Assembly: GCA_020523885.1 (NCBI GenBank)
Contig: JAJAPY010000021.1
Coordinates: forward strand, 1-59,453
Direction of reading: 5' to 3'
Length of the DNA: 59,453 bases
Source of the DNA: Candidatus Liberimonas magnetica
Lineage (GTDB): Bacteria; Elusimicrobiota; Endomicrobiia; Endomicrobiales; JAFGIL01
The notes beneath the pieces are model-generated. The model had not been told where the DNA came from, made no database searches, and was given only the letters and a program-made list of their open reading frames with translations. The position numbers and the translations under genes were made by a program. Positions 2,421 through 58,382 of this stretch are shown here, piece after piece (position 1 is the stretch's first letter; every line of letters begins with the position of its first letter).

Positions 2421-2424
2421 AATA

Positions 2425-37296: not shown

Positions 37297-37326
37297 CCCG
37301 TCCATTTTTATTAGGACGGGTTTTTT
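37297..37326 (+). terminator. Rho-independent terminator just before the giant gene
   Basis: CCCGTCC (37297-37303) pairs with GGACGGG (37314-37320), followed by six T. It starts at the stop codon of the gene at 36811 and ends 8 bases before the ATG of the giant gene. Confidence 0.85.
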
Positions 37327-37334
37327 ATTTGTCT

Positions 37335-40300
37335 ATGATAAAAAACAATTTAAAAACCATTATCAATTTTAAAAAAGTAACAGCGGTATTAACTGCCCTC
37401 TGTTTTACTTTTTCTTTTATTATAGGCCAGCCGCTTCAGGCAGCCCTGGAACAGAGAAAAACCAGTAAAGACTTTAAAGAGATATTTGACGGGTTGTTGA
37501 TACCGGTAAATTACGGTAAAATAACTGAAACATACTCAGCGGATAATGTAGAGCGCAGAGAAACAGAAAAAAACAACTATCCGCTAAACGCTAAACGCTC
37601 CACGCTAGTGGTAAACATCCAGGACCTGCACTGCCACCCGGAAGTTCAAAAAAACATCTCAAATATCATATCGATTTTAGATAAGAAGTATAACCTGAAA
37701 AAAGTATACATTGAAGGTGTCAGCGGCTCCATAGACACTTCCTGGCTTACTAATGTAAAAAACGAGGACCTAAAGAAAAAAGTCCTTGATACCCTTCTTG
37801 AAAGCGGCAAGCTTTCGGGCGCAGAGTATTACTCCGCGACATCAGGAAAAAACGATATTCTCTATGGTGTTGATGACAGGGCGCTTCACACTTCGAACAT
37901 CATACGGCTCGCTAAAATTCAGGCAAAACAAAATGAGATACAGTCAAAGGTTGACGAACTTGCCCGCCAGGTGTCGGAACTGAGGGATGTGTATTACGGT
38001 TCAGGTAACAAAAAACTGGATAAACTGATCGAAAAGAATAGGCTTGGAAAGATCAAGCCCAAAAAGTACTATTCTAAGCTTCTTGAATTTGCTCAGGACC
38101 AAAATATCAGCCTAAAGAAATCCAATAATTTAACTGAGTTTACAAAGATATTTGAAGTGCAAAGCAAAATAAACTATAAACAAGTCAGCAAGGAATTGCA
38201 GGTATTTATTGTCTTATTAAAGGCCAAACTACCCTACTCATCATATAATATGCTGGCTACCTACACAGGCAACTTTTCGCAGCCGAACCAGTTATATGTC
38301 TATCTTTCACGGATAGCCAAGAGATTCGGGCCCTCCGTTATGCAGGACTTTCCAAACTTAAACAAGTTTTTTGAATATCTGGAAGTAACCCAAAACATAA
38401 ACCCTATACTTCTTATTGACGAAGAGCACAACCTCATTAATGAAATACGCTTAAGGCTGGCCCGGACAAAGAGCGAACGGGAAGTAGTATTTTTAAATGA
38501 ATTTATTAGGAATTTCAAAGATTACCTGGCTTATAAAAGTTCAACTAAGGATTATGAATATATCCGAGCTAATACAGAGCAGTTTAAATACTTGTGGGTC
38601 AAGTATGTCAAAAATGAAGAACTAACTGGGATCCAAGAGTATTTTGATTTGCTAAATGAATACTATGCAGCCAACTTTTTGCGTAATAATTGCCTGATCG
38701 CAAACTGCGGCATACTGCAGACTACAGACTACAGACCACAGACTACAGACCACAGACCACAGACTACAGGAATGCCTGTCAATGAAGGGATTGCTTTGCT
38801 GCCGCTTGCAATGGTTCCTAGCGATGCCTTGGAAAATGCAACCGAAGTCATTGTTCTTATTACCGGCGGTTTCCATACTGCAGGCCTTTCAGAACTTTTG
38901 AAAGAAAGAGGAGTGCCATACCTGGTAGTGACCCCTAATGTTACCCAAAACACAGGTTTGGCAGAGTCTGTATATGCTAAACTCCTTGAATACCAGAGCC
39001 AAATGCTTCTAGAACAACAGATAGTAGACAACAGACCGCAGACCGCAGACCACAGACCACAGACCAAATATTTTGAAGGAAAGAACTCTGGTCTTTCAGG
39101 TTTAGCGCTTATTATCTTATCAGCCCTTGGATTACACGAACGGGCAGATGAGATAGCCGATGATCTTATGCAAATGATGATAAAAAATAAACTCACCCCT
39201 GAACAAATAAACTTAATTTTTAACGAGTTATTTAAAGATCTTAATGTTGATACGGCTAAAACCGGCATTTTCATTTCAGATGACGGCTTGAAACTTTCAT
39301 ATAATTACCTTGATAACTCAAAAGCCGAGAAAACCGCATCCATTGCTTATACTAAGGAAGGCAAAAGAAAGCCGGAAAGCATACAGGCAAAACCAAAAAC
39401 CGCACAGGAACACAGGTCCCAAAAGGCAATTCTTAAAGAGGCAGAAACATATACCACTACGGTATTGGGTATGGAAGTACCGGAGCAGCTCTCAAGCGTT
39501 GTAAAATCAGCTCAACAGGAAGTTATCAATGCGGTCGGGCTAAGGTATATCATTAGAAGTTTCCTCAAAAACCTGCGCTTGCCTTCAATAAAAGATACTG
39601 ACGAATGGATTGTTAGAATACTCAACTCTTTATTTATAAGCAGTAACAGTGTTAAATGGCGCAGGGACCGGGAAATTGATCCTTTGGCTGCAAAAGGAAT
39701 GTATAACCTGAAAATTGCAGCAATTACAAACGCAGTGCTAAAAGACAAAAAAAGTTTTTTTGATCTGTTTTTTCATACCCCGGGACAAACACCTGATGAT
39801 ATTTCAGCAGATGTCCGCGTTGTCAAAGCTCACGCCATGCCCAGAGAAGATGGTTCTCCTGGTTTTTTTATGTTTAATCCGGAAGGTAGTATGCGGGAGC
39901 CCAAGAAGGTTTTTGAGGTTACTGAAGGATTTTTGCAAACTCTAAAGCTTGAGGATGACGGTTCATGTCCGTTTATTGATATAGTAGTTGAATACGAAAA
40001 GTGCCGGTTTCTGGCCTTTGATGAACCTACCAGCGAAATAGGAAGGGCCTTTTCCTCCTATTTATTAAAAGAAAATAAAAACATGAGCCTCCAAGAAGCA
40101 AAACTGCCAGAAAACCGCACAGTTGCGCATTTTCACGGATTTGTTAATTATATTGCAGAGTTAGCAAAAATAGAGCCAGAAAACCAATTAGTGAAAGGTT
40201 ACGGCCATTTGGCCGGGTTGCAGCGGAAAATTGATGAATATACCAAAGCGCAGATGTCGGCATCGTCATTAGTAAAAAACAAAATAGAGTCATTTAAAAA

Positions 40301-43300
40301 CCGGTTAAAATTTGCCAAACAATCTTTAGATGAGTTGTGGACGGTGCTGTTCGGCAGTTACGAAAAGAAACGGGCCATGCTTCTGGACACCGGGAAACAG
40401 TCATTTCGTTTCTATCGGGATATGGTAAATGAAGCAGGCAGCCAACTGCCGCCGGACAATGTCACGCTGGAAGGCGATATTATATCCGGTGTAGATTACC
40501 GCACATCTACAACGAACATCGGCAAATATATGCTTGCCCTGCCTAACAATGTAAAGTTATGGCACACCCTGATGCAGGAAGAATTTGCCAAGATTGCAGG
40601 AAAAGAAAAAGTTGTCGATTTTATTAAATTTTTGCAGGCAAACGGAATTATGAACAATGATTACAGGTTTAAGGATATACCATTGAAAGATTTAGAAGAT
40701 TTATTAAAGGGGAGCCCATACCAAAAACAGGTAAAGAAAATATATGAAAAAATCCATTGGGCTATTAATGAACAAAAGGATTATATCACCCAAACAGAAA
40801 TGCTCAATCGTCTCAAGATGACGTTGAAGAGCATTGAACGGATGCCGAAACACACGACGACAATCGTTAGAAATGGAGAAGAACTTGACGTTGAGCATCT
40901 CTATAACTGGTATTACATTCGGGAAGAAAATGGGCATAAAGCGCTTGAACCGCAAGGCTTGTATATCTCGGCTGTTGATAACGGTAATTTTGCGGCAAGT
41001 TTAATGAACGTTGTGTCAGCCCTTGAAGCGATGGAAGGAACAGAAGCTGCCGCTGAAAGGAAATTAATTATTAATCAATGTAACGATATAATTAAAAAAA
41101 TGCGCTTTGATGTCTTCTGGGAAGAGCAAATTGTTATGAAGGAATTATTTTCCTATATAAGCAGAAGAATAGATACTGCCCGGCTGACGCATGATTGGAA
41201 AACAAATCTTAATAACAAACAGGAAATTAAAGATAAAATAAATCATTATCTTGGCTTGCTTGAAAAAGATTTTTTTGGGAATAGAGATGAAATCCTCAAT
41301 TTTATAGAAAAAGATATCAGTGCTTTCGTGGATAAAGAGATGCCCGGCTACGCCGCAGAAGTAAAAACACATATAACCCGGGCCTTAGATTACAACTATC
41401 TTATGCGTATGGGGGGCAACGAAGCTATCGCAGGTTCTTTGCTTGATGCAATTGAGGGTATTAAAAAAGGAAAAGAAGGCAAGGATGTGGATGTGTTTAA
41501 GGTTCTGTGCCAAAAAGGATATATGGCCGGAGATGGAAACTTTCCCGGATATTTCCTTGTACAGCCAAAGTTTGCAGAAGTAAAAAATAAATATGAAGAC
41601 TTTCGTGTATCTTTGGAAAATGATTTTAATCCGGACCAGATAAGAGAAATATTTGAGGTATTAAAAAGCAAGTCAGAGATCTACCTTCAAAAAGCCAGAT
41701 ATGACCGCACTTTAAGCGAAGCAATGAATGCTTATGTAGTTGCAATTGAGCTGGGGCACATACCCGATAATGCCTTAAACCATACTATCTTCAGGTCCTG
41801 GTTTGGCACCATGTTTGAACAAATGACACGCCGCATTTTTATGGATACGGATGATTCGCCCATAGGAGATAAGGATGTTGAATTAATTGAAGCACAGCTG
41901 AAAGAAAAAATAGGAGGGGTTTTAATCGCAAGGTTTGGTAAAAGGTTCGGCCGTTTCCTTGAGAACCGCCCGTTTATAGGATTTATCCTAACCCTTATTT
42001 CCGGTAGTCATTGGGCAAAATCTGAGTGCAATGCGCTTACTAAAGATGGTTATGCGGCCTACGGTAACTGGGAAATTGCTGAAGACCAGAATGATTTTAT
42101 AAATGTAGACGTAAGTGCTTCGTATGCCTTATATATGGCTATGCTTATGGCAAAAAGGATGGGCACGAACCGTATCCTTAATGCTGTTGTGCGGGGCCAA
42201 TGGAACTTAAAACGCCATAATATGAATTGCAGGTTTGGTTATTATGAAGCCTGTCAGGTAATAGAGCGAAAAACCTTGGGCATATTCATAAATTTTACAT
42301 ACGGAATTGTTAATCAAGTCTATGCGCACCATACCGGTATGATGTATATGGCGCTGGTAAACTTTTTTACAAATGATATAAATGTTGAATGGTTTAAAGC
42401 ATATGTGAAAAACCACGGGGCTACAGGTGTAAAACCTCTTGAAAAAATTTTTGAAACTCCCGCGGAAAAATATCATGATCCGGAAAAAGATAAAGAATCG
42501 GCAGATACAGAAGACAAAGAAAAGCGTGTTCTTGTCGGAAATGCAAAATTCTTTGGCGATGCAAAAAACCCTATAGGCCTGATTTGCTATGGTAATAGTA
42601 ATGCCTTGGGCTATAATAATGTTGTTGACATTAAAGACATAGGCACAGGTGAAGTCTATACTGTCGGAGCAGCTGAGCCGGAGATAGTATGGGGAGAAGG
42701 AGATAAAAAAGGATACATCTATTATAATTACAGTTTCCCGGTTAAAGGATCAGAGAAAAAATTCAAAGTGACTGTACGGATCTGTTATGATAAAAAGGAA
42801 TCCGTACAGGAAAGAGAATACTCTCTTACGCCTCCCAAAGATATGAATATAGATTATACGGCTATGATGGAATGGATAATGGGAAACGTAGATTCCTGGG
42901 AGACGCACCGTACCTATCATGAAATGTTCATCTGGACCTGGTGTAAACAGGGTTTATATCATCTATTACTGCCATTACGAAAGGTCCCTGGTTTCAGGGG
43001 CCAGAGGTTTAGAGGTTTCTTAAGCATATTAAATATGACTACCCCCGGTTCCGGCTATATTATGTCCAGACAGCGGACACTGCAGGGGGAACAGGAAGAA
43101 CAGCCGTATGGGTTTATTTGTTTTGGCGGCAAGGATGGTTCACTCTTTGACGGTTTTGATACTGACCGGATGACGCTTTATGGCAGGTTAAGAAGTATTT
43201 TATTTCCTAAATCAGTTGAAACAGGCAAATTTGCAGGCAATCAGGGATACTCGCTTGCGCCTGCCGCGGGCCTTAATAGAAAAGGAGTTTTCATTAAAGC

Positions 43301-46300
43301 AGGAGAGACCTATAAGTTCAGCGTTCTTATAGGCCTAGGACAGAATGAACGAGAGGTTTCTAGAATTGTCAAACGCTGCCGGGAACAGGGCATCACAGAA
43401 CGGGCAACGGAGAATCCTCTAAATAGTAACTATAAACCTCCTCTAGAGCTGGCAAAGATGGTTGCCGGGTTCTGCAAACGTCTCAAGCGTTCAGTACGCC
43501 TGATGCCGAATAAACCTGATTCTGAGTTTGAAGTATTTAAAAATTCTTTAAAAATACAATATGGTATTGAAAAGGGAAAAGGAAAAACAGTTGCCGCACA
43601 TATTCTTGCGCAGCTTTTGAACACCGGCTATGAAGATCTTTCAAAACTTGCGGATGCTGAAATTGCCAAGCGGCTTAGCGAGAATCAAATTGACGAAAAA
43701 CGAGTTCAAAAAGTATTTAGAGGAATTATAAACAGCCCGGATATAAGCATTGTTGAAGAAATACTCGGCAGAGGAATTAATGAATTGCGTAATAATGCTT
43801 CCCGATCAGATAAAACAGCGCTTGACAAACTAATTGAAGACTTAATAAGCAAATCCGCTTACGATCTATCCGACTTTTATGACTCCACAGAAGACGGCGG
43901 CAGGGTGCTCAGAAATGAGATTAAAGATTTATTGAAAAATATTATAAATTCTAAAGACGGAAAGATACCTCAAAAGCAGCTGCGCAGCCTAAAACAGCAG
44001 GCACTTAACGCTCTGTATCCTTATAATCCCACGGCGCCTGTGTACCGGTTTACACAGGAAGGCAGGGTGTGCATTGTAAGGAAGCCTCGTTCTACCAAAA
44101 AACCGTGGGCCTATCCGGATTCAAACGGCCGCATGGGATTTGTGGCAACAGTTGCCGGAGCCTTCTTTTCGTTTAGTGGAAGTTCGGTATTAAAACAGAG
44201 TATGTGGAATCCCAATATTGTAACTGAGAACGTAGTGACGGGATTAATGGTAAATATAACCGATGAAAACGGAAAGAAAATAGGCGACTTTTCGCTGACC
44301 CCTCACCCGCAGCCGTCTTCAAACGTTACCTATGAAACACGGGTAACCCCGGGGAAAATAGAGTATATTACAAAAGCGATCGACGGGTCATTTACTATAA
44401 CGGTAACACGCTTTGTCTCAAAATATGAACCCGTATCCTTTGCCAAAGTTGACATTAAATACAACGGCGAAGCAGAACGTAAATTTGCTGTTTCGAGTTT
44501 TAATAAATGGGAAGGCCAGGACTTAGTGGTTAATTTTGATGAACAACAGGGCACGCTTGATATTGAAAGCAGAAGTGGTGATACCATGCTGACCGGGTTC
44601 CACAGGATGATAGGCGATAAAAAAGCTCAGGAAGATGACACCTTCACAGAATATAGTTCTTCGAAGTTTCTAATAGGGGAACTGGATTACAATGGAATTA
44701 TGGACCAGCTAAGGAATGAAAAAAGATCACATAATGATAAAGTTGTTATAGCTGAACTTTTTGGATGTTTAACTCGTGAAGTGGATGAAATGTCGAACGA
44801 AGAAATCCTTAAATACCTGAAAAATATTTACGAAGAGGCCCTCGTAGATGCATTTAACAGGCTTATGGATAGACAGAATCTACCGGATGAAATAGCATAC
44901 AAGCATGAAAAATTACGCCCGCAGATACAAGAGTTATTGGATACTTATAAAGAAATAAGTAAAGACCGTCTTTCTTTGGAAACCAAGCTGGCACCTTTTA
45001 GTAAAGAGCTTAACCGGGCGCTTTTACAGGCAGCATTTCCGGAGGGAGCTAGACGCAGTTATTCGGGAAATGACGATTTTGCGGGCCTTAGGACTGAAGT
45101 TTCGCTGAGCAAAGATAAACAAAGCAGCCATTTTGCCTTTATGTACGGTCAAATATATAAAGGTGATGACGTACAGCGCAAACAGGAAGCCCGGGATATT
45201 ATTGAGAAATTCAAAACAGAAGACACCATAGATAAAGAGCTTGAAGAGCGCACGGCATATTTAAAGAAAAAACTCTTCAGCTTTAAGATACATACCCCGA
45301 ATGCGAACCTTAATTACATGGTAAATTACTGGCTGCCGTACCAGATGTATTTGGTTCATATTTATGCGCGCGCAGCCCTTTATCAAGCTAGCGGCGGCTA
45401 CGGATTCAGGGACCAGGCGCAGTCGTATCTCGGCCTTTTGCAGTCCGGTAATTGGCAGCTTGGGCATGAAACTTATGCGTATATTAAAGATCTCTGCGCA
45501 CACCAGTTTGAAACCGGCGCAGTGACCCACTGGTGGCTTGAACACAACAATCTGGGACAGCTTTCCACTATATCCGACAACCTCTTATGGCTGCCTTTCA
45601 TTCTGGGCAAATACCTAAATGTTACCGGTGACTATGCATTTCTTGACGGTAAAATTGATATTTTAAAACCCTTTAAGATCCCTCAAGGGCGGCTCGACGA
45701 AGCCCGTATACTTGACCCGAAAACAAGTTTTGCTGAACAAGCCGTAACGGTGTATGAACATGCTAAAAGAGCTATGGACCTGAAACTGACCCAGATGGGT
45801 GCCCACGGGCTTCCGTTGATAGGAAAAGGAGACTGGAACGACGGTCTTGACCGCATGGGGCATATGGACAGGGGAGAAAGCGTCTGGCTTGCATTTTTCC
45901 TTTATACGAACTTGATACAGTTTGCGGATATAGCCGAAAAATACGGTAAAACAAGTGACGCAGAACGGTACCGTGATAAGGCGCAGGAGCTCAAAAGAAA
46001 CATTGATTTACATGCCTGGAACGGAAAATATTATGTGCGCGGTTTTTCAGATGACGGAAAGGTAGTTGATTTTTGCGATGTTATAGTTCAGTCCTGGGCA
46101 GAGATATCCAATGGATCAGATCCGGTTCGTGCAGAAAAAGCTGTAAAATATGCGGTGAAACACCTGTACAAACCAAAAGAAAAAATGATCTTGTTGTTTG
46201 ACAGGATTTTAAACAAAGAAACCTGGGCCGGTGCGTTGGCGCGGTATGCTCTTGGTATTCGCGAGAATGCTGCTCAATATACTCACGGCGCAACCTGGCT

Positions 46301-49300: not shown

Positions 49301-52300
49301 CGATTTAGCCAAGCTTAGCAACAAAGTCACAAAAAGAACGATAAATAGTGTACCGGAAGAAAAGCTGAAAATGCTTTATTATTCAGATACTTTTGATGAA
49401 AAATTTGTTGATAATTTAAAGAAGGAGTTTGTCAGCATTGTAGAATTTTTGTCTGGGCTTCCGCCTTCAATAACTTCCTTTGGCAGTGCACGATCTCTGC
49501 CAAATGATCCGGATTATGCAATAACAAAGAATTTAGGCAGAATTGTATATGAAACCTTCAAGAAAAATAAGGAAGGGAAAGCTGACAGGAACCAGCCTCT
49601 TTCAGAAATAAAAGCCCTGCCGGCGGTAAAAACCGGCGGCGGGCCTGCTATGATGCAGGCATTTTTAGAAGGCTTTTATGAGGCTGCAAAAAAAGACGGA
49701 ATGTCCGATGAAAAATTAAAGACTCTTATTCAGGCGATACGAGTTAAACTTCCTTTTGAGCAAAAACCGAATGAAATAGTTAGACATGGAAGATGGATGC
49801 TGACCTCTACTTTCGCAGGACGCGAGTGGGGCCTTTGTATGAATAACTACGGTTTATTTTCGCAAACCGGAGGTTTAGGAACTGTCTGGGAATTGTTAGA
49901 AGTTTTATTTAGGCAGCAGCCTATAGTTTTTACGAGTTTCTGGATACCGTTTATAAAGACATTGGAAGAAATCGGGTTTATAGAACCTCTAAAAGGCGGG
50001 TTTGAAGGCACCCTGGTTCCAGAAGCAAGAGGCCCTCTTGATGCACAAGGAAGAGAAGTTAGGGTTCTTGGTTCGTATAGAACAACTAATGCAGGCACGC
50101 CGCTGTCTGTAATGGGAAATAATGAAGATGCAACTCTTGAGGCAGGCGTTAGGTTTATGACAAATACAGGTTATGTGCCAGAACTGCCGTCACTTAAAGA
50201 GATATCGAAGGAAATGGATGAACTTGGAAAGAATATATCAGAATTAAGAACCTGGGGAAAGAGCCTAACATTTATCGGCGGTCAGATAATAACGCAGGAA
50301 GAGATGAACAATACCGTTACTTTAATAAAAGGTTTGCTTAAGAAAAGAACTGTCCGTATCGCTAATCTTGAATTATTAAAGGCTTTAAAGGCCTCCTTGA
50401 CAGCTGAAGAATTTGAACAAATTCAAGTGGTTACTCTGGTTAAAGACCCGCAGGATATACCGGCCGGTTTATTGCCTCCGGAATCAATTGTAACAAAAAG
50501 TGCAATTTCTCATCAGATATTAATAAACGAGAATGTACAAAGCTTTGTATTCCTGCCCGGAAATGAAGAAACTATGCGCCTATGGTCTGCACTGCTTGTT
50601 TTTATGGAAACCGGGAAAGCTCCGGTCCGTCCGATAATTTCAGTAAATGCAAAAACCGATAAAGGCAGGCTCTGGGAGTGGAACGAGATTACGCGTATTA
50701 TTGAAAAAATAATGTTTGACGACAGAGAAAAAACCCACTCCGAGACTATCGCAAAAGGCGACACGCGCAGGGCTCAGGTTGCTCAGACAAATAATGATGT
50801 AAACAGGCTGATTAAAGCCGGAGAGGACCAGGACAACGCTAAAGAAGCCCTTATTCAATTTGTAAATCAAAACAACCCTGAGCTTATTGAACATATAGGA
50901 TTAGAAGATACCATAGCAGCGGTCCGTGACGCAGAGATAGAAATTGTAGCGCGGGGCCCGCCAAGCATAGAATATAAAGGAAGAAGCCAAAGAGTAATTA
51001 AGATATCAAAAAATACAGCAGCTGCCTTAAAAAATAACCCTTCAAAAATCAGCGATAAAACCAAAAAAGACCTATCTGTAGTTTTAACCCTTGCCCACAT
51101 AAAAGCAAAATACAAAGTTAATATAAAGTTCGATGAAGCAGCTTCGAAAGCTCCTCTGGAGTTATTGGCAAAAGTCTTGTCTGGAGAAGCTTTAATATAT
51201 ACTGATAGATTAAACACCGCGATAGAATTGGTAGACAAGAAAGAAAAAGCTACGAAAGAAAAGGGTGCACCTCAGCTTACAAAAGAGGAAGAGGAGTCCT
51301 TAGAAAAACTATTTGCTGAGATAGATGATAGGATCCCGGCTATAGGCAAAAAACTTGTCTCTATTAGAAACACTTTAAACTTTTCACAAAAGAGCGAAGA
51401 GTTTGATGCTCTTGAAATAAAAATACATAACGTTTTTCTCTTACTGGCTCTGAGCGATGCAATTAGAAATAAGAGTAATACCGGCGGTTTCCCTGTCAGC
51501 GCCATTATCTTTAATAAAAAAACCGGGGATATTATTGCACGGAAATATAGAGATAAAGTTAGTGTTACGGAGCCGGAAAGGGACAGGCTTGGTACAGGAG
51601 GAAAGCAGTATTTTTATCAGCATGCTGAGCAAACTGCGATACTTGCCGCAAAAGCAAAGGGTTTTACGGACTGGGAACAGGCATCTATTGTTTCAAGCCA
51701 GGAGCCCTGTAAAAACTGTGCCTGGAGTATTATAAACCACGGGTTTAGTTCATGTATTTACGGCAACAAAGATGCAAGCCCGACTTTTCTTGGCTTTGGA
51801 AAAATAATGCTTCAGCAGGGCGCTGTATGGATTTATAAAGCTGAACAATCGCTGATAGACCTGGCAGAAAAGATGATGGCTCCCTATCAAGAAGGTGTTG
51901 GTGATGTTCATGCAGAAAGAAGCTTAATGAGAATATATGGCGAGGACGAAAGAATTCATGAGGTTATCCTTACAGGTGTCAGCAAATTTTTGTCTTTAGA
52001 TGAAAGCGGCAAAAGATACGGGAAGATGGAGAGAGTGTTTAAAGATGTTGTAAGAAGCCTGCTAAACCTTCCTATTGGAAAAATTGCAAACGAAATTAAA
52101 CGAATAATTGAAGATAAGAGTATGGTAGATATCGCTTACTCAATGGCCTGGATGCAATCGCAGGCGGGCACTCTCGTAAATAAAATGCTTAAAAAAGAAA
52201 ACCTTTTAGCGGAAGGCGAGCATAAACAGGTATATGCTCTTGACCCGGATTTTTCTGTTTACGATACCGTAAAGGGAACAGGGAAGCAGACTGTGGGCTG

Positions 52301-55300
52301 GCATATTGCCAGCAGGCTGCCTAACATGTGTAATCTAGCAGAGCCGTGGACCTTGCTGGTTATAGGAACAGGCAAAGATGCGGACAGGCTTTTAGCTGAT
52401 ATAAAACAAGAGCTTGAAAGAAAAGTTAGAGAAGTAAAACATAAGAAAGCAGAATGGGAGACAGATCCTGAACATAAAGAAAAGTTAACTGACCGGGAAG
52501 TTCAGTTTTTAAGTTTAATACAACCTGAAATCATGTTTTTAGATATCCAGGATGACTTTGTTAGATTGTTAAACGAAGAGAAAGAAAGAATAGCACAAGC
52601 TAACTTTGATGAGGCACCTGTTGCGGAACGAAATGAAGTGAAAGCAGCTGTTGATGCAAGGAAAGCCCGGTTTGAGCAAGGGAAAGATATCTATGGATTT
52701 AATAAAGAAAGCGGTAAAAATGGCGATGCATTGGATATATTCATAGATGCGCATATGCCCAAAGGCTTTAAAGGCGGGTTAACTGCCTGGCGGGGATCCA
52801 GTGAGCGCAGGAAGCTTATAGATGGAATTGGTTATATTGAAGCTACTATGAGTGAAAGCGTTATAGAAGCTTTAGGTAAACAGTTTACAGGTATTACCCA
52901 AGCTAACCTTGCACAAGCAGTTACCGCTGTTGTTGATGCCATGCTTAGCACCTCTACCCTTGCGGGAGAGGTCCAGGGTGATACGGCAATGGGGCTAAAC
53001 GCAGCTGAGAAAGCGGCTATCTTGGCTAAACTGAAAGAACCAGATTCTGCTTTTGCTAAAGCTGTAATGAAGTCGATCACTTCATTTGTGTCCCCGAAGC
53101 AAATACTAACCCTTACCATTGAAGACCTGGCTAACATAGCCGCCCACGCAGCCTGGAACCTTACGCATGAGAAAAATGAAAGGCTGACAACAATAACGCC
53201 TCTTCCAGCCGATATCAGACAAGAAATACCAGCAGTTCCCGATACTATTCAATCCCATTTTGATCAAGTATCAGGGATGAGAGACAAAGCATCAGCCCTG
53301 CCAGTTATTAATAATGACTATCCTAAGTTTAAATCAATGGATCTCGCAGCTCTTTTAGAATCTTTTATTAATAAGGAAAATAACGGTGGGGCATTGTTGT
53401 ATGCTTTACAGGACGATTTTGCTGCTTTTTGTTTAGAGAATGAAAAAAGTACCATGCCCGAAGCTCTGGAGTACTGGGAAGTCTGGCAAAAAAGATTAGC
53501 AAAAGCGGTCAATGCTGTGAATGATAAGCACCAAGGCACAGTTGCTGCATTAAAGCAAGATGAAAAAATACCTGTGCTCACAATCCAACGAGGCGGTAAG
53601 CAGCATGAAATTAAATTATTTAAAAACCATATAGTCATAGACCCCAAAATGCGCATGGCGCAGTATTACCTGCAGGGAATAAAGTATGCCCCAACAAGTA
53701 ATTTTAATCTCCTTGAAGAGGTTAATCATTTGCTTGTTATACAAAATAAGAGAAGAAATGTAAGAACTTCGTGGTGTTCTCGTAATTGTGTTTTCTGTGC
53801 TGTCAATACCCCTTATCTCAGAGAAACTATAGAAGCTACGACACCTATAGATTTAGAAGATATAGACAGTAAAATAAAAGAGGCAGCTGAAGCTGGTATT
53901 AAGAACATCGATATTTTAGGCGAGGATTCATTTGACGATATAGAATCGCTCATGGCAACACTTGATGCATGTAATAAATACCGGATAAATAATGTACATA
54001 TAACAACCAACGGCTTATTATTTTTACAGGACCCTGAAAAAGCCAGAGAGGTTTTAGAAGATATTAAGTCGAGAACTGCCGGCATTGGTACAATGACGAT
54101 ACGTTTAAGCTGGGACAACGAGGCAGTAAAGACAATCAAAACCTGGAAGAAGTTCGGCAATAATGAAGATGCTGTGTTTCTTGCAATGGCACAAACCATG
54201 AAGCTGCTGCAGGAAGTATTAGGGTTAAAATCAGTTAAATACAGGTCAACGACCGACATGTCGAAAGCTATCGCCAGGGGTGAAATAGATTTTTACCAAT
54301 ACGAAAGAATATTACATGAGATGGTACACAACGAAAACGGGTATTTTGGCCAATACAGGTTAACTGTCACTGCCCACGATTTGGATAAAGAAGGGGTCGG
54401 GGCATCTTTCTTCTCGAAACTTGATAGTACCCTTGCTTTATTAGAAAGTTCTTCCCAAATGTATGAAAAGCAAAAAATGCCATTTACCGCATTTACCTAC
54501 CATTCAGGCTTAACACCGTTTTTCCAGAATAAGCGTCTAAAGCATTTGAGTTTACCGTTTGATAAAATTGTTGAGAAACTAAAAGCAAAAAGCAGATGCA
54601 TACTTAATCCTACGCTGGATTTTTCAACAGGCTTATTTATGCCCTGCGATACTCGCAGGGAATCCAGGTTAAGGTCCCGGCCTATTACTAAACGTACAAT
54701 TTCAGATCTTATTGCTCAAACAATTGATGATCCTTTGGGAAGGCATCTTTATGTGTGGAATAACGTAAGCCTTTTAGATTCTGCTAAAGTAAACTTGTAC
54801 AACTCTCAAGAACAAAATATCCAATATGCACGGCAATTCCGTATTGCTAAATATTTTTTTCCATTCCTAAGCTCGTTACCTATCCTTATGGGCAAAGCAG
54901 GAAGTTATATAGAATCAATTATTTTCCCTATGGATGAGTTAATGACTAAAATAGATTTAGTATATTTATTAGGCGATGTTATGGCCCATCTTAAAGGAAA
55001 ACAAGAAGAAAACTATACTTTTCAATCAGTGCCGGCACAATTATTACCACTTCTTTTTGAGCAGGATGTATTATTGGGGCATCTCTATGATCAAAATCCA
55101 TCTTTTAGGCCCATAATTGATAAAAATACAGGGCCGGATACAGATAAATTATTAAATAAATCGCTTGAGGAATTTGCCAAGAGGCTGCATAAGAGCGTAG
55201 ATGAATTAACCCCGGAAGAGCGCCTGCAGGCTGATATGGAGTACGCTCCTGTTGCGGAATGGGCTGAAATAGCCAGGATATTCAAGTATAAATCCCTGGC

Positions 55301-58300
55301 AAAGCTGCCTGTTATTGGCCTGTTATTTGGCCTTATATACAATTTGCGTTTAAACAGGTTTTTAGATGCGCATCCCCAATATAACGATAAAGAAGCATTA
55401 AAAGAAGGCCTGGAATTCATTGAGAAAAAAGTTGTAAATGCCGCAGTTGCTGCTTTGGGTAAAGAGTTCAAAGGTATTGCCAACCTTTCAAAAACAGTCT
55501 ATGCTGTTGTGGCAGCTCTGGCCTTAAGCGAAAAAGACAAAGAATTAATCAAAGAAAATCTGGGAGTTTCTGAAGGTGAAAATATCGATGATGCCTTAGC
55601 GGATATGGTGTCAAGCTCAATCACTTCATTTATGTCCCCAAAGCAAATATCAACACTTACCATAGAAGGCCTGGCCAACATAGCTGCCCACACTGTCTGG
55701 AACCTGACACATAAGCCGGAGGAGAGGCTTTCAAAACCGCAAACCGACAAAACAGTAAAGCAAGTAAAGCCTGGCACTGGAAATGCTACAAGTCCTACAA
55801 TAGAGAAAGAAATTTTATATAAACAGGCTTCAAATGCAATCGAGCACCTTAATGCTTTAGCAGGCCCATTTACTCTGAATTGTGCCCATTATGCCATAGA
55901 AACACAGCGAAGAATAGGTGGTTCATCACGGATTATAAAAGTTCAAGAAAAGGGGGCGGCAAGTTATCATTACTATGTTAGATATGGAGAATGGATTATA
56001 GACCCTTCTCCATGGTTGAATGCTTGGGACAAATTCATTGTAAAACCTGATATTCCTATTGTGTTACATAAAGATGATCCTAAAGCTAAAGTTTACATAG
56101 AAAACGGATCCATTCCTGAAGATGACGATATTCTTCAACCACTTGAGCAAATAAAATTCCTTGAAAGAAATTTTAAAGGAAATATCCCTAATCAAACAGT
56201 TACACAGGAAGAGCAGCTGACTAAACAGCAAACCGACAAAACAGTAAAGCAAGTAAAGCCTGACACCGGAGACACTAAAATCAATTTGAGGGTTGTTTTA
56301 TCATTGGGAATATCCCGGATCAAACAGTCTATTATATACAGTCCTATTCGGTTTTTTGCGGTTCTGCATCACAATATATCAATATGGTTTAAAATAGTGT
56401 TTAAAGATACTATCAAGGAGTTGGTCCATACAACATCTTACATTATAGCCAATAATAAAGAAGAGGCACAAAGCCTAAAAGAAAAAACCGTCCAGATGAC
56501 ACAGATGGGACAAAATGTCGTTACTATAGCGCCGATTACTAGGGAAGAAGCGAAACAAGAAAAAGGCCGGTTTAGAGAAATAACCCCTGATAAAGAAACT
56601 ATAGGAATAAACTATCTAGACAAACCCTGCAGGATCTTGCAGGAACTCACTAAAGCAGGCCACGGCACATCGGTTGTAACGCTTTATGTCGAGCTTCCAG
56701 AAGGGGTTAGTGCGATTGAAGCTTCAGCTCTTGGAGAGATAGCGCAGCAACTGATCGAAGACATTGCAGGCAGCCCAATATACAGCCAAGCACTGTCCAA
56801 ACATCTGCCGGTAAAATACAGCAGAAAAGCTTCAAAGTTAAAGCCTGATATCGTATTTGGCTTAGGCGATATAGCCAATTTTATTCAACCGAAGCCTGAA
56901 AATTTAGACAGAGAAAATCTTTTCAAAGATACTCTTTTTGTGGCAATAAATGATAAGCATATTAAAGCGGCTGATGTTATTATAAGCGTAAAGGAATTTA
57001 TGGATTATGAAGGTTTAAAAGGCCTTTCGGCAAAAGACTTGATAATTAAATATATCGGGCCCGCCTATATTACCAAATCCATAGAATCGGTCATGGGCAG
57101 GTATGCGGAAAATATAGTGGAAGTGGAAAATATAGATTCAATAACAAAAGACCAATTAGGCCGGGCAGCAGAAAAAGCCGATAAAAAACCTGTTGTAAGA
57201 GTTTCAATCAATAATATAAAGGAACTGCCCGGTTACGAGATCGAGCCTGCCCTAAGCGCTGTTTCAGTCCAGGACTTGAGCGCTCAATTAAAAAAGAATA
57301 TGAAAAAGTACGATAGGTTTTATATTGACCTGCGTAGCTTTGAAGGTTTTACTCTTGCAGATTATAAAAAAATCGAGGGGCTTTTTAAACGTTTCCCGGA
57401 CACCAAGGTATTATTTGCCCTGCCTGAAAAACTAGCCCGGGAAGAAGAAAGGGCGCTGATCGAAAAAAGCCTTAAAGATGTAAGTAATTTTTACCTAGAA
57501 CGCTTATTTTCCTCAGATGTTGCTGTGCCGCTGCTTGCCGAAGACAAAGTGTATTATAGGGTGGAAGGGGAAAATTATGAGGCAGCTAAAAAGCTCCAGA
57601 AAACCGGCATCAGCGGGTTTGTAATTAATCTAAATGAAGTGGGTGCCTTGCTTCAGGAAATAGTATCTGGTATCGCAAGTTTATCAAAACCTAAAGACCC
57701 GGTAGAAAAGTATAAACACTCCTATTTAAAGCTGGGCCTCAACTTTTTCCAAAAGAGAAAAATACCTCAAATTTCTTTAAAAAATGAAGAAATGCTAAAA
57801 ACCCTGGCTGTTTCGATATTTAAATGGCACGAAAAGAATGAACCGGGCCTTATTGAAGAAATAATGAATATGGTTAATAATCCTGACAATGATTTTGACA
57901 TAGGGGAACTTTATAGGTTGAAGCTTAAGCTTCAATATTTCTATAATAACAAGCAATATGACGAATTAGTTGGCTGCCTGCGCGGTGCGCTTGAAGTTGT
58001 TGTCAAAGATGCCTATTTGCCCAAAGGCATTCGATTAAAACAGGACAGGTATAACGCAGTAATGGGGACATTTATTTTAAAAGCTTTTACCCTAGGCAAA
58101 GAAGGGGAGAAAATACTTGAAAAGCTTGCCGAAGGCGATTTCGGGGAAACCGGCTTAGATGCTAAAATTAACCAGCAAAATACTATTACGGTCATTACCC
58201 AGGAAGCTCTTAAAGACAGCGATAGGATCATTAAAGATGCAGTTTTGCCGGAAAGCTATACCTTGGAACAACTGCTCGAAGTATTATTCCTCTACTACCA

Positions 58301-58382
58301 GGATCAAAGAGAGTTCGGTTTTAAAGACATGCCGCAGGACCTTAAAACCTCCTTCATCAAAGCCGTTCAAGCCGCCGGATAG
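37335..58382 (+). CDS. Giant multidomain secreted protein (about 7,015 aa)
   Basis: One uninterrupted frame; residues are counted from TTG 37329, but ATG 37335 is the likely start. A signal peptide (AVLTALCFTFSFIIGQPLQA) leads it. Domains seen: N-terminal domain with IQDLHCHPEVQ (about 96) and GGFHTAG (about 513). A cyclic-beta-glucan-synthase-like region follows with DYRTSTTNIG (1054), LYNWY (1191), YISAVDNGN (1212) and AHHTGM (1665). GH94 covers about 2230-3260 with FRDQ (2692) and DWNDG (2835). Then come HELQH (3559), a LOG-like domain (GGGPAMMQ 4103, GGLGTVWE 4181), a deaminase-like zinc site (HAE 4765, PCKNC to 4797) and radical SAM CSRNCVFC (5483-5490). A Cys6185-His6214-Asp6225 module is last. 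The region after 6310 is unassigned. Omnitrophota are known for such giants. No Shine-Dalgarno is evident. Function inferred: envelope glycan chemistry, unproven. Confidence 0.9.
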   Translation: MIKNNLKTIINFKKVTAVLTALCFTFSFIIGQPLQAALEQRKTSKDFKEIFDGLLIPVNYGKITETYSADNVERRETEKNNYPLNAKRSTLVVNIQDLHCHPEVQKNISNIISILDKKYNLKKVYIEGVSGSIDTSWLTNVKNEDLKKKVLDTLLESGKLSGAEYYSATSGKNDILYGVDDRALHTSNIIRLAKIQAKQNEIQSKVDELARQVSELRDVYYGSGNKKLDKLIEKNRLGKIKPKKYYSKLLEFAQDQNISLKKSNNLTEFTKIFEVQSKINYKQVSKELQVFIVLLKAKLPYSSYNMLATYTGNFSQPNQLYVYLSRIAKRFGPSVMQDFPNLNKFFEYLEVTQNINPILLIDEEHNLINEIRLRLARTKSEREVVFLNEFIRNFKDYLAYKSSTKDYEYIRANTEQFKYLWVKYVKNEELTGIQEYFDLLNEYYAANFLRNNCLIANCGILQTTDYRPQTTDHRPQTTGMPVNEGIALLPLAMVPSDALENATEVIVLITGGFHTAGLSELLKERGVPYLVVTPNVTQNTGLAESVYAKLLEYQSQMLLEQQIVDNRPQTADHRPQTKYFEGKNSGLSGLALIILSALGLHERADEIADDLMQMMIKNKLTPEQINLIFNELFKDLNVDTAKTGIFISDDGLKLSYNYLDNSKAEKTASIAYTKEGKRKPESIQAKPKTAQEHRSQKAILKEAETYTTTVLGMEVPEQLSSVVKSAQQEVINAVGLRYIIRSFLKNLRLPSIKDTDEWIVRILNSLFISSNSVKWRRDREIDPLAAKGMYNLKIAAITNAVLKDKKSFFDLFFHTPGQTPDDISADVRVVKAHAMPREDGSPGFFMFNPEGSMREPKKVFEVTEGFLQTLKLEDDGSCPFIDIVVEYEKCRFLAFDEPTSEIGRAFSSYLLKENKNMSLQEAKLPENRTVAHFHGFVNYIAELAKIEPENQLVKGYGHLAGLQRKIDEYTKAQMSASSLVKNKIESFKNRLKFAKQSLDELWTVLFGSYEKKRAMLLDTGKQSFRFYRDMVNEAGSQLPPDNVTLEGDIISGVDYRTSTTNIGKYMLALPNNVKLWHTLMQEEFAKIAGKEKVVDFIKFLQANGIMNNDYRFKDIPLKDLEDLLKGSPYQKQVKKIYEKIHWAINEQKDYITQTEMLNRLKMTLKSIERMPKHTTTIVRNGEELDVEHLYNWYYIREENGHKALEPQGLYISAVDNGNFAASLMNVVSALEAMEGTEAAAERKLIINQCNDIIKKMRFDVFWEEQIVMKELFSYISRRIDTARLTHDWKTNLNNKQEIKDKINHYLGLLEKDFFGNRDEILNFIEKDISAFVDKEMPGYAAEVKTHITRALDYNYLMRMGGNEAIAGSLLDAIEGIKKGKEGKDVDVFKVLCQKGYMAGDGNFPGYFLVQPKFAEVKNKYEDFRVSLENDFNPDQIREIFEVLKSKSEIYLQKARYDRTLSEAMNAYVVAIELGHIPDNALNHTIFRSWFGTMFEQMTRRIFMDTDDSPIGDKDVELIEAQLKEKIGGVLIARFGKRFGRFLENRPFIGFILTLISGSHWAKSECNALTKDGYAAYGNWEIAEDQNDFINVDVSASYALYMAMLMAKRMGTNRILNAVVRGQWNLKRHNMNCRFGYYEACQVIERKTLGIFINFTYGIVNQVYAHHTGMMYMALVNFFTNDINVEWFKAYVKNHGATGVKPLEKIFETPAEKYHDPEKDKESADTEDKEKRVLVGNAKFFGDAKNPIGLICYGNSNALGYNNVVDIKDIGTGEVYTVGAAEPEIVWGEGDKKGYIYYNYSFPVKGSEKKFKVTVRICYDKKESVQEREYSLTPPKDMNIDYTAMMEWIMGNVDSWETHRTYHEMFIWTWCKQGLYHLLLPLRKVPGFRGQRFRGFLSILNMTTPGSGYIMSRQRTLQGEQEEQPYGFICFGGKDGSLFDGFDTDRMTLYGRLRSILFPKSVETGKFAGNQGYSLAPAAGLNRKGVFIKAGETYKFSVLIGLGQNEREVSRIVKRCREQGITERATENPLNSNYKPPLELAKMVAGFCKRLKRSVRLMPNKPDSEFEVFKNSLKIQYGIEKGKGKTVAAHILAQLLNTGYEDLSKLADAEIAKRLSENQIDEKRVQKVFRGIINSPDISIVEEILGRGINELRNNASRSDKTALDKLIEDLISKSAYDLSDFYDSTEDGGRVLRNEIKDLLKNIINSKDGKIPQKQLRSLKQQALNALYPYNPTAPVYRFTQEGRVCIVRKPRSTKKPWAYPDSNGRMGFVATVAGAFFSFSGSSVLKQSMWNPNIVTENVVTGLMVNITDENGKKIGDFSLTPHPQPSSNVTYETRVTPGKIEYITKAIDGSFTITVTRFVSKYEPVSFAKVDIKYNGEAERKFAVSSFNKWEGQDLVVNFDEQQGTLDIESRSGDTMLTGFHRMIGDKKAQEDDTFTEYSSSKFLIGELDYNGIMDQLRNEKRSHNDKVVIAELFGCLTREVDEMSNEEILKYLKNIYEEALVDAFNRLMDRQNLPDEIAYKHEKLRPQIQELLDTYKEISKDRLSLETKLAPFSKELNRALLQAAFPEGARRSYSGNDDFAGLRTEVSLSKDKQSSHFAFMYGQIYKGDDVQRKQEARDIIEKFKTEDTIDKELEERTAYLKKKLFSFKIHTPNANLNYMVNYWLPYQMYLVHIYARAALYQASGGYGFRDQAQSYLGLLQSGNWQLGHETYAYIKDLCAHQFETGAVTHWWLEHNNLGQLSTISDNLLWLPFILGKYLNVTGDYAFLDGKIDILKPFKIPQGRLDEARILDPKTSFAEQAVTVYEHAKRAMDLKLTQMGAHGLPLIGKGDWNDGLDRMGHMDRGESVWLAFFLYTNLIQFADIAEKYGKTSDAERYRDKAQELKRNIDLHAWNGKYYVRGFSDDGKVVDFCDVIVQSWAEISNGSDPVRAEKAVKYAVKHLYKPKEKMILLFDRILNKETWAGALARYALGIRENAAQYTHGATWLVTAFIKLLHRLKADLDKKDNELKETLTKIADKPFNILTIANYLWVCAVLFYKTYSYKKFAGKLPGLMACFSPMEHADPLEHSDGIVHTDGPGHKPAVNYGGEPYGVPADIYGGMYWEMIVPRLIGYFFKLQWGQAVELIRYLRSQGYDRKGQVGWTMYSGCSSWIYSNILKYVLGFDKGFDFENGDTVRINPTIPNEWGEYEYEYPYFDIKNGKTSNYKIKIFNPHHVFQGVEKIEVDGKPVENPQEAIKLVADGMNHSIVVTMGPELFSLRKALGDLIKVLLSNLKLVKQVKPDTGDKPQSIANNPLIADLRRRVEVIKEQLTTLTEDLGLEPLQAQAKTVTETVIEASKESLATAALTSGVPVSRLTKQELLDEYFKQRELITEIIIKLRNYLSANPDASLEEIGVIGKDVQELTAQRAVARFSAGIAKYLSERKKVKQLAKIADRAGIKDGQTLLSKDILQDPAKKEFFSGILGFIPKRVKITFLPDTVSFLLDQDSYAYMNYLRKKLESKEDIGPFTQQNKKLFLDSTGLSNVNYIKNYNGMDIKGLFIFESEGSPNIERTKVHELQHRFYRAYGDGEVSQALGFDKTELDDLIARINRETNSEAKDKLIDELIHIMELHILSRIQSEMISKVMDGKWVRIKNISGWVKSYKNDILSSITAQLSGLNDKALIGRIARKASVRPEAMVKKYKPVIDEIIKYKTKLIMDKEGIDALSALKKANEWAATFLQTIPITKFDRLEGYKDVLRKQAGWLGKGVDLAVLDILGKAPIIKEALGDNLAVVSTAIAKAVLLNPDITKISPENIKEDQIDRPVRYDGKIINIRTYKGKLIQSQTEKGIAGLATLEPDGVTVSVSEGFWELWGNKKPSEITDDELRVAIKHEINETNAFKGGDKGFNRDLEKARAQIAEELKNDAFASMAVEEIAKNLPPKNFVKLYHTYRMSLSGNDAEAELIMKAESMVDEAVKTAPFIVPEEIRAVINSIPGLNLARNTTTTLADLAKLSNKVTKRTINSVPEEKLKMLYYSDTFDEKFVDNLKKEFVSIVEFLSGLPPSITSFGSARSLPNDPDYAITKNLGRIVYETFKKNKEGKADRNQPLSEIKALPAVKTGGGPAMMQAFLEGFYEAAKKDGMSDEKLKTLIQAIRVKLPFEQKPNEIVRHGRWMLTSTFAGREWGLCMNNYGLFSQTGGLGTVWELLEVLFRQQPIVFTSFWIPFIKTLEEIGFIEPLKGGFEGTLVPEARGPLDAQGREVRVLGSYRTTNAGTPLSVMGNNEDATLEAGVRFMTNTGYVPELPSLKEISKEMDELGKNISELRTWGKSLTFIGGQIITQEEMNNTVTLIKGLLKKRTVRIANLELLKALKASLTAEEFEQIQVVTLVKDPQDIPAGLLPPESIVTKSAISHQILINENVQSFVFLPGNEETMRLWSALLVFMETGKAPVRPIISVNAKTDKGRLWEWNEITRIIEKIMFDDREKTHSETIAKGDTRRAQVAQTNNDVNRLIKAGEDQDNAKEALIQFVNQNNPELIEHIGLEDTIAAVRDAEIEIVARGPPSIEYKGRSQRVIKISKNTAAALKNNPSKISDKTKKDLSVVLTLAHIKAKYKVNIKFDEAASKAPLELLAKVLSGEALIYTDRLNTAIELVDKKEKATKEKGAPQLTKEEEESLEKLFAEIDDRIPAIGKKLVSIRNTLNFSQKSEEFDALEIKIHNVFLLLALSDAIRNKSNTGGFPVSAIIFNKKTGDIIARKYRDKVSVTEPERDRLGTGGKQYFYQHAEQTAILAAKAKGFTDWEQASIVSSQEPCKNCAWSIINHGFSSCIYGNKDASPTFLGFGKIMLQQGAVWIYKAEQSLIDLAEKMMAPYQEGVGDVHAERSLMRIYGEDERIHEVILTGVSKFLSLDESGKRYGKMERVFKDVVRSLLNLPIGKIANEIKRIIEDKSMVDIAYSMAWMQSQAGTLVNKMLKKENLLAEGEHKQVYALDPDFSVYDTVKGTGKQTVGWHIASRLPNMCNLAEPWTLLVIGTGKDADRLLADIKQELERKVREVKHKKAEWETDPEHKEKLTDREVQFLSLIQPEIMFLDIQDDFVRLLNEEKERIAQANFDEAPVAERNEVKAAVDARKARFEQGKDIYGFNKESGKNGDALDIFIDAHMPKGFKGGLTAWRGSSERRKLIDGIGYIEATMSESVIEALGKQFTGITQANLAQAVTAVVDAMLSTSTLAGEVQGDTAMGLNAAEKAAILAKLKEPDSAFAKAVMKSITSFVSPKQILTLTIEDLANIAAHAAWNLTHEKNERLTTITPLPADIRQEIPAVPDTIQSHFDQVSGMRDKASALPVINNDYPKFKSMDLAALLESFINKENNGGALLYALQDDFAAFCLENEKSTMPEALEYWEVWQKRLAKAVNAVNDKHQGTVAALKQDEKIPVLTIQRGGKQHEIKLFKNHIVIDPKMRMAQYYLQGIKYAPTSNFNLLEEVNHLLVIQNKRRNVRTSWCSRNCVFCAVNTPYLRETIEATTPIDLEDIDSKIKEAAEAGIKNIDILGEDSFDDIESLMATLDACNKYRINNVHITTNGLLFLQDPEKAREVLEDIKSRTAGIGTMTIRLSWDNEAVKTIKTWKKFGNNEDAVFLAMAQTMKLLQEVLGLKSVKYRSTTDMSKAIARGEIDFYQYERILHEMVHNENGYFGQYRLTVTAHDLDKEGVGASFFSKLDSTLALLESSSQMYEKQKMPFTAFTYHSGLTPFFQNKRLKHLSLPFDKIVEKLKAKSRCILNPTLDFSTGLFMPCDTRRESRLRSRPITKRTISDLIAQTIDDPLGRHLYVWNNVSLLDSAKVNLYNSQEQNIQYARQFRIAKYFFPFLSSLPILMGKAGSYIESIIFPMDELMTKIDLVYLLGDVMAHLKGKQEENYTFQSVPAQLLPLLFEQDVLLGHLYDQNPSFRPIIDKNTGPDTDKLLNKSLEEFAKRLHKSVDELTPEERLQADMEYAPVAEWAEIARIFKYKSLAKLPVIGLLFGLIYNLRLNRFLDAHPQYNDKEALKEGLEFIEKKVVNAAVAALGKEFKGIANLSKTVYAVVAALALSEKDKELIKENLGVSEGENIDDALADMVSSSITSFMSPKQISTLTIEGLANIAAHTVWNLTHKPEERLSKPQTDKTVKQVKPGTGNATSPTIEKEILYKQASNAIEHLNALAGPFTLNCAHYAIETQRRIGGSSRIIKVQEKGAASYHYYVRYGEWIIDPSPWLNAWDKFIVKPDIPIVLHKDDPKAKVYIENGSIPEDDDILQPLEQIKFLERNFKGNIPNQTVTQEEQLTKQQTDKTVKQVKPDTGDTKINLRVVLSLGISRIKQSIIYSPIRFFAVLHHNISIWFKIVFKDTIKELVHTTSYIIANNKEEAQSLKEKTVQMTQMGQNVVTIAPITREEAKQEKGRFREITPDKETIGINYLDKPCRILQELTKAGHGTSVVTLYVELPEGVSAIEASALGEIAQQLIEDIAGSPIYSQALSKHLPVKYSRKASKLKPDIVFGLGDIANFIQPKPENLDRENLFKDTLFVAINDKHIKAADVIISVKEFMDYEGLKGLSAKDLIIKYIGPAYITKSIESVMGRYAENIVEVENIDSITKDQLGRAAEKADKKPVVRVSINNIKELPGYEIEPALSAVSVQDLSAQLKKNMKKYDRFYIDLRSFEGFTLADYKKIEGLFKRFPDTKVLFALPEKLAREEERALIEKSLKDVSNFYLERLFSSDVAVPLLAEDKVYYRVEGENYEAAKKLQKTGISGFVINLNEVGALLQEIVSGIASLSKPKDPVEKYKHSYLKLGLNFFQKRKIPQISLKNEEMLKTLAVSIFKWHEKNEPGLIEEIMNMVNNPDNDFDIGELYRLKLKLQYFYNNKQYDELVGCLRGALEVVVKDAYLPKGIRLKQDRYNAVMGTFILKAFTLGKEGEKILEKLAEGDFGETGLDAKINQQNTITVITQEALKDSDRIIKDAVLPESYTLEQLLEVLFLYYQDQREFGFKDMPQDLKTSFIKAVQAAG
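37538..37611. repeat. In-frame AGCGTNN heptamer inverted repeat in the giant gene
   Basis: AGCGGATAATGTAGAGCGCAG on the left faces CTATCCG, CTAAACG, CTAAACG, CTCCACG, CTAG on the right. It is translated between the signal peptide and the IQDLH motif (SADNVERRETEKNNYPLNAK). The frame avoids the TAA and TAG triplets present in the array. Confidence 0.7.
38718..38769. repeat. In-frame AGACYAC heptamer array in the giant gene (first)
   Basis: Seven units (AGACTAC, AGACTAC, AGACCAC, AGACTAC, AGACCAC, AGACCAC, AGACTAC) give a seven-residue peptide period, QTTDYRP QTTDHRP QTTG, at residues about 464-481. Only the left-arm orientation is present. Confidence 0.92.
39026..39066. repeat. In-frame AGACYAC heptamer array in the giant gene (second)
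   Basis: AGACAAC, AGACCGC, AGACCGC, AGACCAC, AGACCAC, AGACC is translated as [15 protein letters not shown] at residues about 566-580. It lies just after the GGFHT domain. Again only the left-arm orientation is present. Confidence 0.9.
47166..47196 (+). repeat. Linker repeat copy 1 (VKQVKPDTGD), end of GH94
   Basis: Thirty-one bases starting GTAAAGCAAGTAAAGCCTG are identical to a stretch at about 56244-56274. It encodes VKQVKPDTGD and sits at the junction between the GH94 domain and the following helical region. Confidence 0.85.
52855..53193 (+). repeat. Duplicated helical module, copy 1
   Basis: It encodes VIEALGKQFTGITQANLAQAV, then SITSFVSPKQILTLTIEDLAN and IAAHAAWNLTHEKNERL. The same order of motifs with about half identical residues recurs at 55428-55737. 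The radical SAM domain lies between the two copies. Confidence 0.75.
55428..55737 (+). repeat. Duplicated helical module, copy 2
   Basis: It encodes VNAAVAALGKEFKGIANLSKT, then SITSFMSPKQISTLTIEGLAN and IAAHTVWNLTHKPEERL. The SITSF to LTH part is also well conserved at nucleotide level with copy 1, so the duplication is fairly recent or under conversion. Confidence 0.75.
55740..55780 (+). repeat. Linker repeat copy 2, before the Cys-His-Asp module
   Basis: CAAACCGACAAAACAG then TAAAGCAAGTAAAGCCTG encodes QTDKTVKQVKPGTG. It matches copy 3 over its first 34 bases. Confidence 0.85.
56228..56275 (+). repeat. Linker repeat copy 3, after the Cys-His-Asp module
   Basis: The same linker as copy 2, encoding QTDKTVKQVKPDTGD. 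Copies 2 and 3 flank the roughly 450-base Cys-His-Asp module as direct repeats. Confidence 0.85.

Follow-up and report, generated by a model that had tools for sequence, protein, structure and literature searches.

A giant open frame of 7,015 codons in an Elusimicrobiota genome, its family of related giants and a candidate two-gene export unit

We find that positions 37335-58382 of the window, the whole 59,453-bp stretch analysed here and the entire contig JAJAPY010000021.1 (C21), form a single coding frame that specifies one protein of 7,015 residues. The host assembly (3.39 Mb, 29 contigs, 97.8% complete) is placed in the Elusimicrobiota (Endomicrobiales). As judged from its sequence, the giant is a member of an 18-member family within its own genome and of a multigene family that extends across the phylum. 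Our leading interpretation, held tentatively and at somewhat less than even confidence, is that the gene forms the downstream part of a two-gene export unit, in which a small partner gene is followed by a terminator-like hairpin that would limit the giant relative to the partner, and then by the multi-enzyme giant itself. The features of this unit are as follows.

36811..37296, + strand: partner gene, 161 aa, with an N-terminal helix, a K/S/T-rich linker and a C-terminal helix, then LPRGSID; assigned by linkage to heads
37295..37330, + strand: intrinsic-terminator-like hairpin and T-tract between partner and giant; 9-bp stem, then TTTTTTATTT
37335..58382, + strand: giant gene, 7,015 aa from ATG; open frame, codon usage and homology
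37335..37442, + strand: signal-peptide-like N-terminus, probable cleavage after LQA; sequence layout
37443..39011, + strand: conserved head domain, ~520 aa, alpha/beta core with an inserted helical region; 18 copies in the genome
40389..42395, + strand: GH189-like cyclization (transglycosylase) domain; PDB 8wy1, E 2.6e-14
42747..43334, + strand: GH94 supersandwich domain (best stretch); Pfam PF06165, 4.7e-19
45258..46808, + strand: GH94 phosphorylase-like catalytic domain; Pfam PF17167 2.5e-59, NdvB 8rf9 6e-81
48003..48017, + strand: HELQH motif (aa 3559-3563); motif alone
48492..49301, + strand: recurrent HExxE module (aa 3722-3991) with invariant H, E, E and a later Y-H; six copies aligned
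49413..49994, + strand: LOG-like (lysine-decarboxylase family) domain; PDB E 0.003, GGGPAMM and GGLGTVWE motifs
51432..51764, + strand: cytidine/deoxycytidylate deaminase-type domain; Pfam PF00383 4.8e-10
52539..53198, + strand: recurrent spacer module, copy 1; resembles segments of the C4a, C4b and C4d giants
53763..54053, + strand: radical SAM core, CSRNCVFC; Pfam PF04055 7.8e-10
55161..55886, + strand: recurrent spacer module, copy 2; 51% identity to a segment of the C4a giant
55875..56048, + strand: Cys-His-Asp site (from aa 6183); LNCAHYA, SYHYYVRYG
57090..58379, + strand: C-terminal domain (last 430 aa) ending QAAG-COOH; HMM match to the C12a and G001-C17 giants

The frame is open from 37287 and closes with the stop at 58382; initiation at the ATG (37335) yields the 7,015-residue protein, and an alternative TTG start (37329) would yield 7,017 residues. 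The probability that so long a frame lacks a stop by chance is ~10^-270, as estimated from the stop frequency in the other two frames, and codon usage trained on the flanking genes favours the giant frame in 35 of 35 blocks of 600 nt. Thus, one uninterrupted gene of ~21 kb, as proposed in the initial annotation, is borne out. We considered that an assembly or annotation artefact might have fused several genes, an outcome that the annotation itself had named as fatal to its claim and for which a draft genome in 29 contigs leaves some room. Codon usage and frame are uniform along the giant, however, a giant of a sister genus aligns in frame with it (40% identity across 2,672 aa), 17 further long frames with the same head occur in this genome, and dozens of comparable frames occur in independent genomes; gene joining is therefore extremely improbable. 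Searches of the window for tRNA and Rfam elements yielded no matches, nor did searches for defence systems (PADLOC) and viral origin, and a PHROGs search matched only the deaminase.

The 18 heads in this genome (at least 18 giants) each lie on a long frame of 2,423-12,656 aa, and their open frames total 122,474 aa and account for ~10.8% of the assembly. Contig ends interrupt four of these frames, and several giants in draft assemblies are likewise cut short. Heads were found in 64 of 295 sampled Elusimicrobiota genomes, many genomes of the order being without them, and number 4-50 per genome in the twelve related genomes counted. Two genomes from other families of the phylum, G080 and G095, carry 37-50 distant copies each, on frames of up to 10,906 aa. 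When one genome per GTDB species was searched, the best 80 head matches were all named as Elusimicrobia, Endomicrobia or their genera, the nearest among these 80 being the MAG Endomicrobiales Zod_Metabat.202.

The rest of the giants is far less uniform than the head: outside it, only 24% of the window giant resembles other giants of the genome. Sibling giants carry matches to a wide range of enzymes (PPDK, PFK, GH2, GH77, GDE, UPRTase, ADH, adenosine-deaminase-like, lipase and PLD) and to DnaJ, AAA, TrmB-like HTH, WD40, HEAT, TPR and kinase-like domains; among these, DnaJ keeps its HPD motif and the lipase its GHSLG. The glucan block and the radical SAM/C-terminal block, joined in the window giant, are divided between two giants in the sister genus, from which we conclude that modules shuffle between giants.

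Both ends of the giant carry common features. The N-terminus has a Lys-rich n-region, a hydrophobic core (KD 2.3) and a small residue at -1; it is the only strongly hydrophobic segment of the protein, in keeping with the signal peptide proposed earlier. All 18 heads in the genome share this layout: each opens with basic residues or a short leader, continues into a hydrophobic core and has a small residue close to where cleavage would be expected. The head that follows has invariant residues Q96, H99, E103, E127 and R191, GGFH at 511-514 and P534-N535 (numbered from the ATG). Structure prediction by pieces, which the initial annotation had suggested, gave models of the head (AF2 pLDDT 81, pTM 0.76) and of the HExxE module (pLDDT 80.5), and neither led to a confident fold: for the head, searches of Pfam, of PDB sequences and of folds produced no confident match in the last case and none at all in the first two, and the top fold match of the HExxE module, a Zn peptidase, is not significant (E 0.17). 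GGFH lies near the C-terminal end of the head, positioned as is GxxH in the TraB/PrgY/GumN (TIKI-like) family. Pfam, hhalign and fold searches gave no confirmation of a TIKI/TraB identity: PF01963 has no match in this genome, and hhalign of the head with TraB is not significant (P 0.068), with GGFH/GxxH as the sole aligned motif. Similarity of the head to the ChaN-like haem-binding family (PF04187) was also looked for and not found. Heptad DNA repeats of the CAGACTA/AGTCTGA type occupy many intergenic gaps between 97 and 14937 of the window, and repeats of the same type occur in frame within the head linker of the giant, at 38714-38769 and 39014-39066 (QTTDYRPQTTDHRPQTT).

At the other end, an Ala-Ala or Ala-Gly C-terminus is found in 24 of 31 complete giants, compared to 3 of 385 control ORFs (200-999 aa; p 1e-29), and at least two of these three are themselves giant fragments. 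An HMM for a 57-residue C-terminal tail domain proved circular, since a version trained on one subgroup recovered the other in isolated cases only; because the tail domain failed this cross-validation, we limit the C-terminal signature to the last residues. The 3' end of the frame reads as N in the C4c giant (L058).

The gene directly upstream of the giant is linked to heads both in this genome and elsewhere. Partner homologs lie directly 5' of 14 of the 18 heads in the genome and are fused in frame to the giant in three cases (C29, C4d and C3a; L048, L049 and L052), where they add ~180-200 aa. Across units the partner tends to be a predicted two-helix membrane protein of ~160-200 aa. Of 65 heads in other genomes, 41 have a two-helix ORF upstream, compared to 5 of 172 control ORFs (p 1.6e-23), the controls in this test, as in the hairpin and C-terminus tests, including possible non-genes, which favours low control rates. 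Moreover, an HMM of the partners from this genome found 19 matches in other genomes, all 19 directly 5' of heads, and a profile search of five head-less genomes found none. Three genomes rich in heads (G015, G024 and G053) also gave no match to this profile, which indicates that partner sequence divergence is high; two-helix ORFs lie 5' of many gut-genome heads. A partner recognised by homology is missing at 4 of the 18 heads, and three of these (C1b, C7 and C3b) also have no clear hairpin. Searches of Pfam and PDB with the partner gave no match. The partner is not specific to giants, because the partner and hairpin layout also precedes two large exported-looking proteins without a head. At locus L191 (G000:C1:228001-247000), three clustered partner-like genes each lie 5' of a headless large exported-looking protein (951, 791 and at least 3020 aa). 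We infer, from topology and linkage, that the partner may act in export, anchoring or quality control.

Between partner and giant, the hairpin has a predicted RNA fold of -15 kcal/mol (z -3.5), and with its T-tract ends ~12 nt 5' of the giant ATG. A strict scan of the + strand of the window found just two such sites, the second at 22826, inside a gene. By the same strict scan, a hairpin precedes 11 of 18 giants in the genome and none of 101 control ORFs, and by a relaxed scan it precedes 36 of 73 heads in other genomes, compared to 0.020 expected per window. Stem sequences vary between units while pairing is retained, although retained pairing alone is not proof of covariation, since the scan itself demands pairing. 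The hairpin lies right against the start codon of the giant, which makes a promoter between the two unlikely. Transcription would thus have to cross the hairpin, and partial termination there would give an excess of partner over giant. Each of 22 genomes examined has one NusG and no extra NusG paralog, so that processive antitermination by RfaH/LoaP, which we also considered, is unsupported.

Within the giant, the glycan-type modules of the initial annotation are upheld by profile search as a cyclic glucan synthase-like region with a GH189 cyclization domain, a GH94 catalytic domain and its supersandwich. Catalytic residue roles for the GH189 alignment were taken from published work (PMC10834661). 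The giant matches 8wy1, its E1464 aligns directly with the acid/base E1356, and the HH pair is kept at 1667-1668. E1566 is likely the nucleophile equivalent, by way of the WGISES motif shared with the sister-genus copy, an assignment that leans in part on what we take to be the GH189 motif. Membership of GH94 is indicated by the Pfam and NdvB matches together with the catalytic motifs, all of which are present: GDWNDG (2834) and QYTHGATW (2983) are retained in the sister genus (G001), and YSG (3149) is YTG in the sister-genus copy. The giant matches NdvB over aa ~1020-3160, from NdvB residue 981 on, including the catalytic motifs of both families. NdvB also has a GT84 synthase part, whereas the giant has none, a Pfam search of its aa 1-1500 having found no glycosyltransferase families; furthermore, the glucan block of the giant sits inside a far larger exported-looking chain. 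Thus, the block derives from a cyclic glucan synthase and is not itself one, since it lacks GT84 and its alignment begins at residue 981.

The remaining enzyme domains named earlier fared unevenly. The deaminase (Pfam 39.7 bits, cut-off 25) has intact zinc-site motifs (HAE 4765 and PCKNC 4793), and the radical SAM core (39.6 bits, cut-off 29.5) has a CxxxCxxC that is conserved in another of the sister-genus giants (33% identity). For the LOG-like domain (LOG being cytokinin-riboside phosphoribohydrolase), judged by the motifs GGGxxxxM and PGGxGTxxE and by family-level similarity, the motifs do match, with T in place of P in TGGLGTVWE, and the similarity is weak and below the Pfam cut-off (0.0033 on the trimmed segment). 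The HExxH site and the Cys-His-Asp module exist as motifs and find no profile support: HELQH has no Pfam match and a best PDB E of 2, and the Cys-His-Asp site has no credible profile match. The HExxE module recurs in several giants and, among 96 genomes of the class, is seen only within open frames of at least 1,076 aa. For neither HELQH nor this module did profile and fold searches give family-level similarity to zincin proteases. Highly similar DNA encoding KQVKPDTGD occurs at module boundaries at 47128, 55717 and 56206 of the window, and also in the C4b giant; these repeats are possibly recombination junctions.

If the giant is the product of a two-gene export unit, the partner would be translated first and would be located in the inner membrane; the hairpin would pass only part of transcription, such that the partner outnumbers the costly giant, which would be directed into the Sec pathway by the signal at its N-terminus. 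The conserved head and the short Ala-Ala/Ala-Gly C-terminus could then serve as constant ends by which the chain is exported, anchored or processed, and between them would lie a swappable string of working enzymes built by module shuffling. In the window giant, the main activity might be remodelling of beta-1,2-glucan outside the inner membrane, in which GH189 would transglycosylate and GH94 would trim by phosphorolysis, with the membrane synthase absent. Against an export unit, radical SAM, LOG and deaminase domains, together with PPDK, PFK, DnaJ, AAA and ADH in the siblings, make poor sense in the periplasm. The heads that lack a recognised partner or a hairpin, the partners that precede headless proteins, the head-rich genomes in which the partner profile had no match and the single NusG also count against it. 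A bolder form, in which the partner, the intercistronic attenuator, the fixed head and tail signals and the swappable giants make up an undescribed secretion arrangement used across the Elusimicrobiota, possibly into other cells and at the cost of roughly one tenth of the genome, is conceivable and we think it rather unlikely.

Several other readings of the giant bear on the same evidence. The initial annotation had offered a polyprotein, an exported chain whose linkers are cleaved to release separate enzymes, either by its own HELQH, HExxE or Cys-His-Asp modules or by other proteases. The KQVKPDTGD linker at three module boundaries here, with a similar one in another giant, and the confinement of the HExxE module to large frames, with a Zn peptidase as its best (non-significant) fold match, are consistent with such cutting, but no protease family was confirmed, the linker repeats may be mere recombination junctions, and the Ala-Ala/Ala-Gly end is present on the C-terminal module only; we regard a polyprotein as unlikely. 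Somewhat less likely still is delivery of the giant into another cell, where cytosolic-type enzymes would act. The cofactor- and ATP-dependent cytosolic enzymes and the DnaJ, AAA, WD40, HTH and kinase-like domains of the siblings would suit an effector, and termite-gut and rumen Endomicrobia are among the relatives in the best 80 head matches listed, but the closest named relative, MAG Zod_Metabat.202, has no host in its title, and heads are missing from many genomes of the order.

A cytosolic multi-enzyme protein, whose N-terminal hydrophobic stretch is merely a membrane tether, would suit the cofactors that radical SAM, LOG and the sibling enzymes require; we consider this improbable, since the Lys-rich n-region, core and LQA site put the remainder outside by the positive-inside rule and this layout is conserved in 18 of 18 heads. 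The second proposal of the initial annotation, a scaffold or adhesin in which decayed enzyme folds provide bulk or a binding surface, has in its favour the many giant segments without a recognisable domain and the frequent interpretation of Omnitrophota giants as adhesins (PMC10066038). It is contradicted by the catalytic motifs of GH189, GH94 and radical SAM, which are kept across genera, by the intact deaminase and LOG motifs and by the retained DnaJ and lipase motifs of the siblings. The domains are therefore not decayed, since catalytic residues are intact where testable and kept at ~33-40% identity in the sister genus, and we give a decayed scaffold very little credence.

Giant bacterial proteins have been counted and seldom explained. 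The common head, linked partner and leader hairpin are handles with which giants of this phylum can be found, predicted and tested, and these handles bear on which cells make giants, by which route giants are exported and what their cargo does. If the giants are indeed exported, it becomes a testable puzzle why their chains should contain enzymes of ordinary cytosolic type.

Among known systems, polymorphic toxins (PMC3482391) similarly join a fixed N-terminal trafficking part to variable cargo. They differ in that the cargo of the giants is a long middle string with both ends conserved, and no immunity gene was seen. We rejected a polymorphic toxin system because the last 430 aa of the giant are shared with other giants, match no toxin family and end in Ala-Gly, and the ORF downstream is Por_Secre_tail-like. 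That ORF (182 aa, window 58672-59220) has a weak Por_Secre_tail similarity (E 7.7e-4) that is below the cut-off. A Fic/DOC-family gene lies at 25480-26520, ~11 kb 5' of the giant. Giant1-5 of Apilactobacillus kunkeei (PMC12863079), several giant extracellular proteins that take up 6% of the genome, are surface proteins of a lactic acid bacterium and are likened to the present giants by description. The Omnitrophota giant ORFs, such as that of 39,678 aa in Velamenicoccus archaeovorus, are alike in being giant, common in their phylum and poor in annotated domains; they belong to another phylum, the nearest named relatives of the window giant being Endomicrobiales/Elusimicrobia (best 80 head matches), and head, partner and hairpin are absent from their description in the available part of PMC10066038. 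Within the phylum itself, Amaral and Devos 2024 (PMC11573180) found Elusimicrobiota enriched in proteins over 5,000 aa and assigned no COGs to the huge proteins, and the accessible portion of that survey describes no head family, partner or leader. Giants of this phylum are mentioned there and in PMC12057145, in the parts available to us without a head-partner-hairpin architecture. Set against these descriptions, as far as they were accessible, it is thus the combination of head, partner and hairpin that seems new, in a phylum whose giants were already known.
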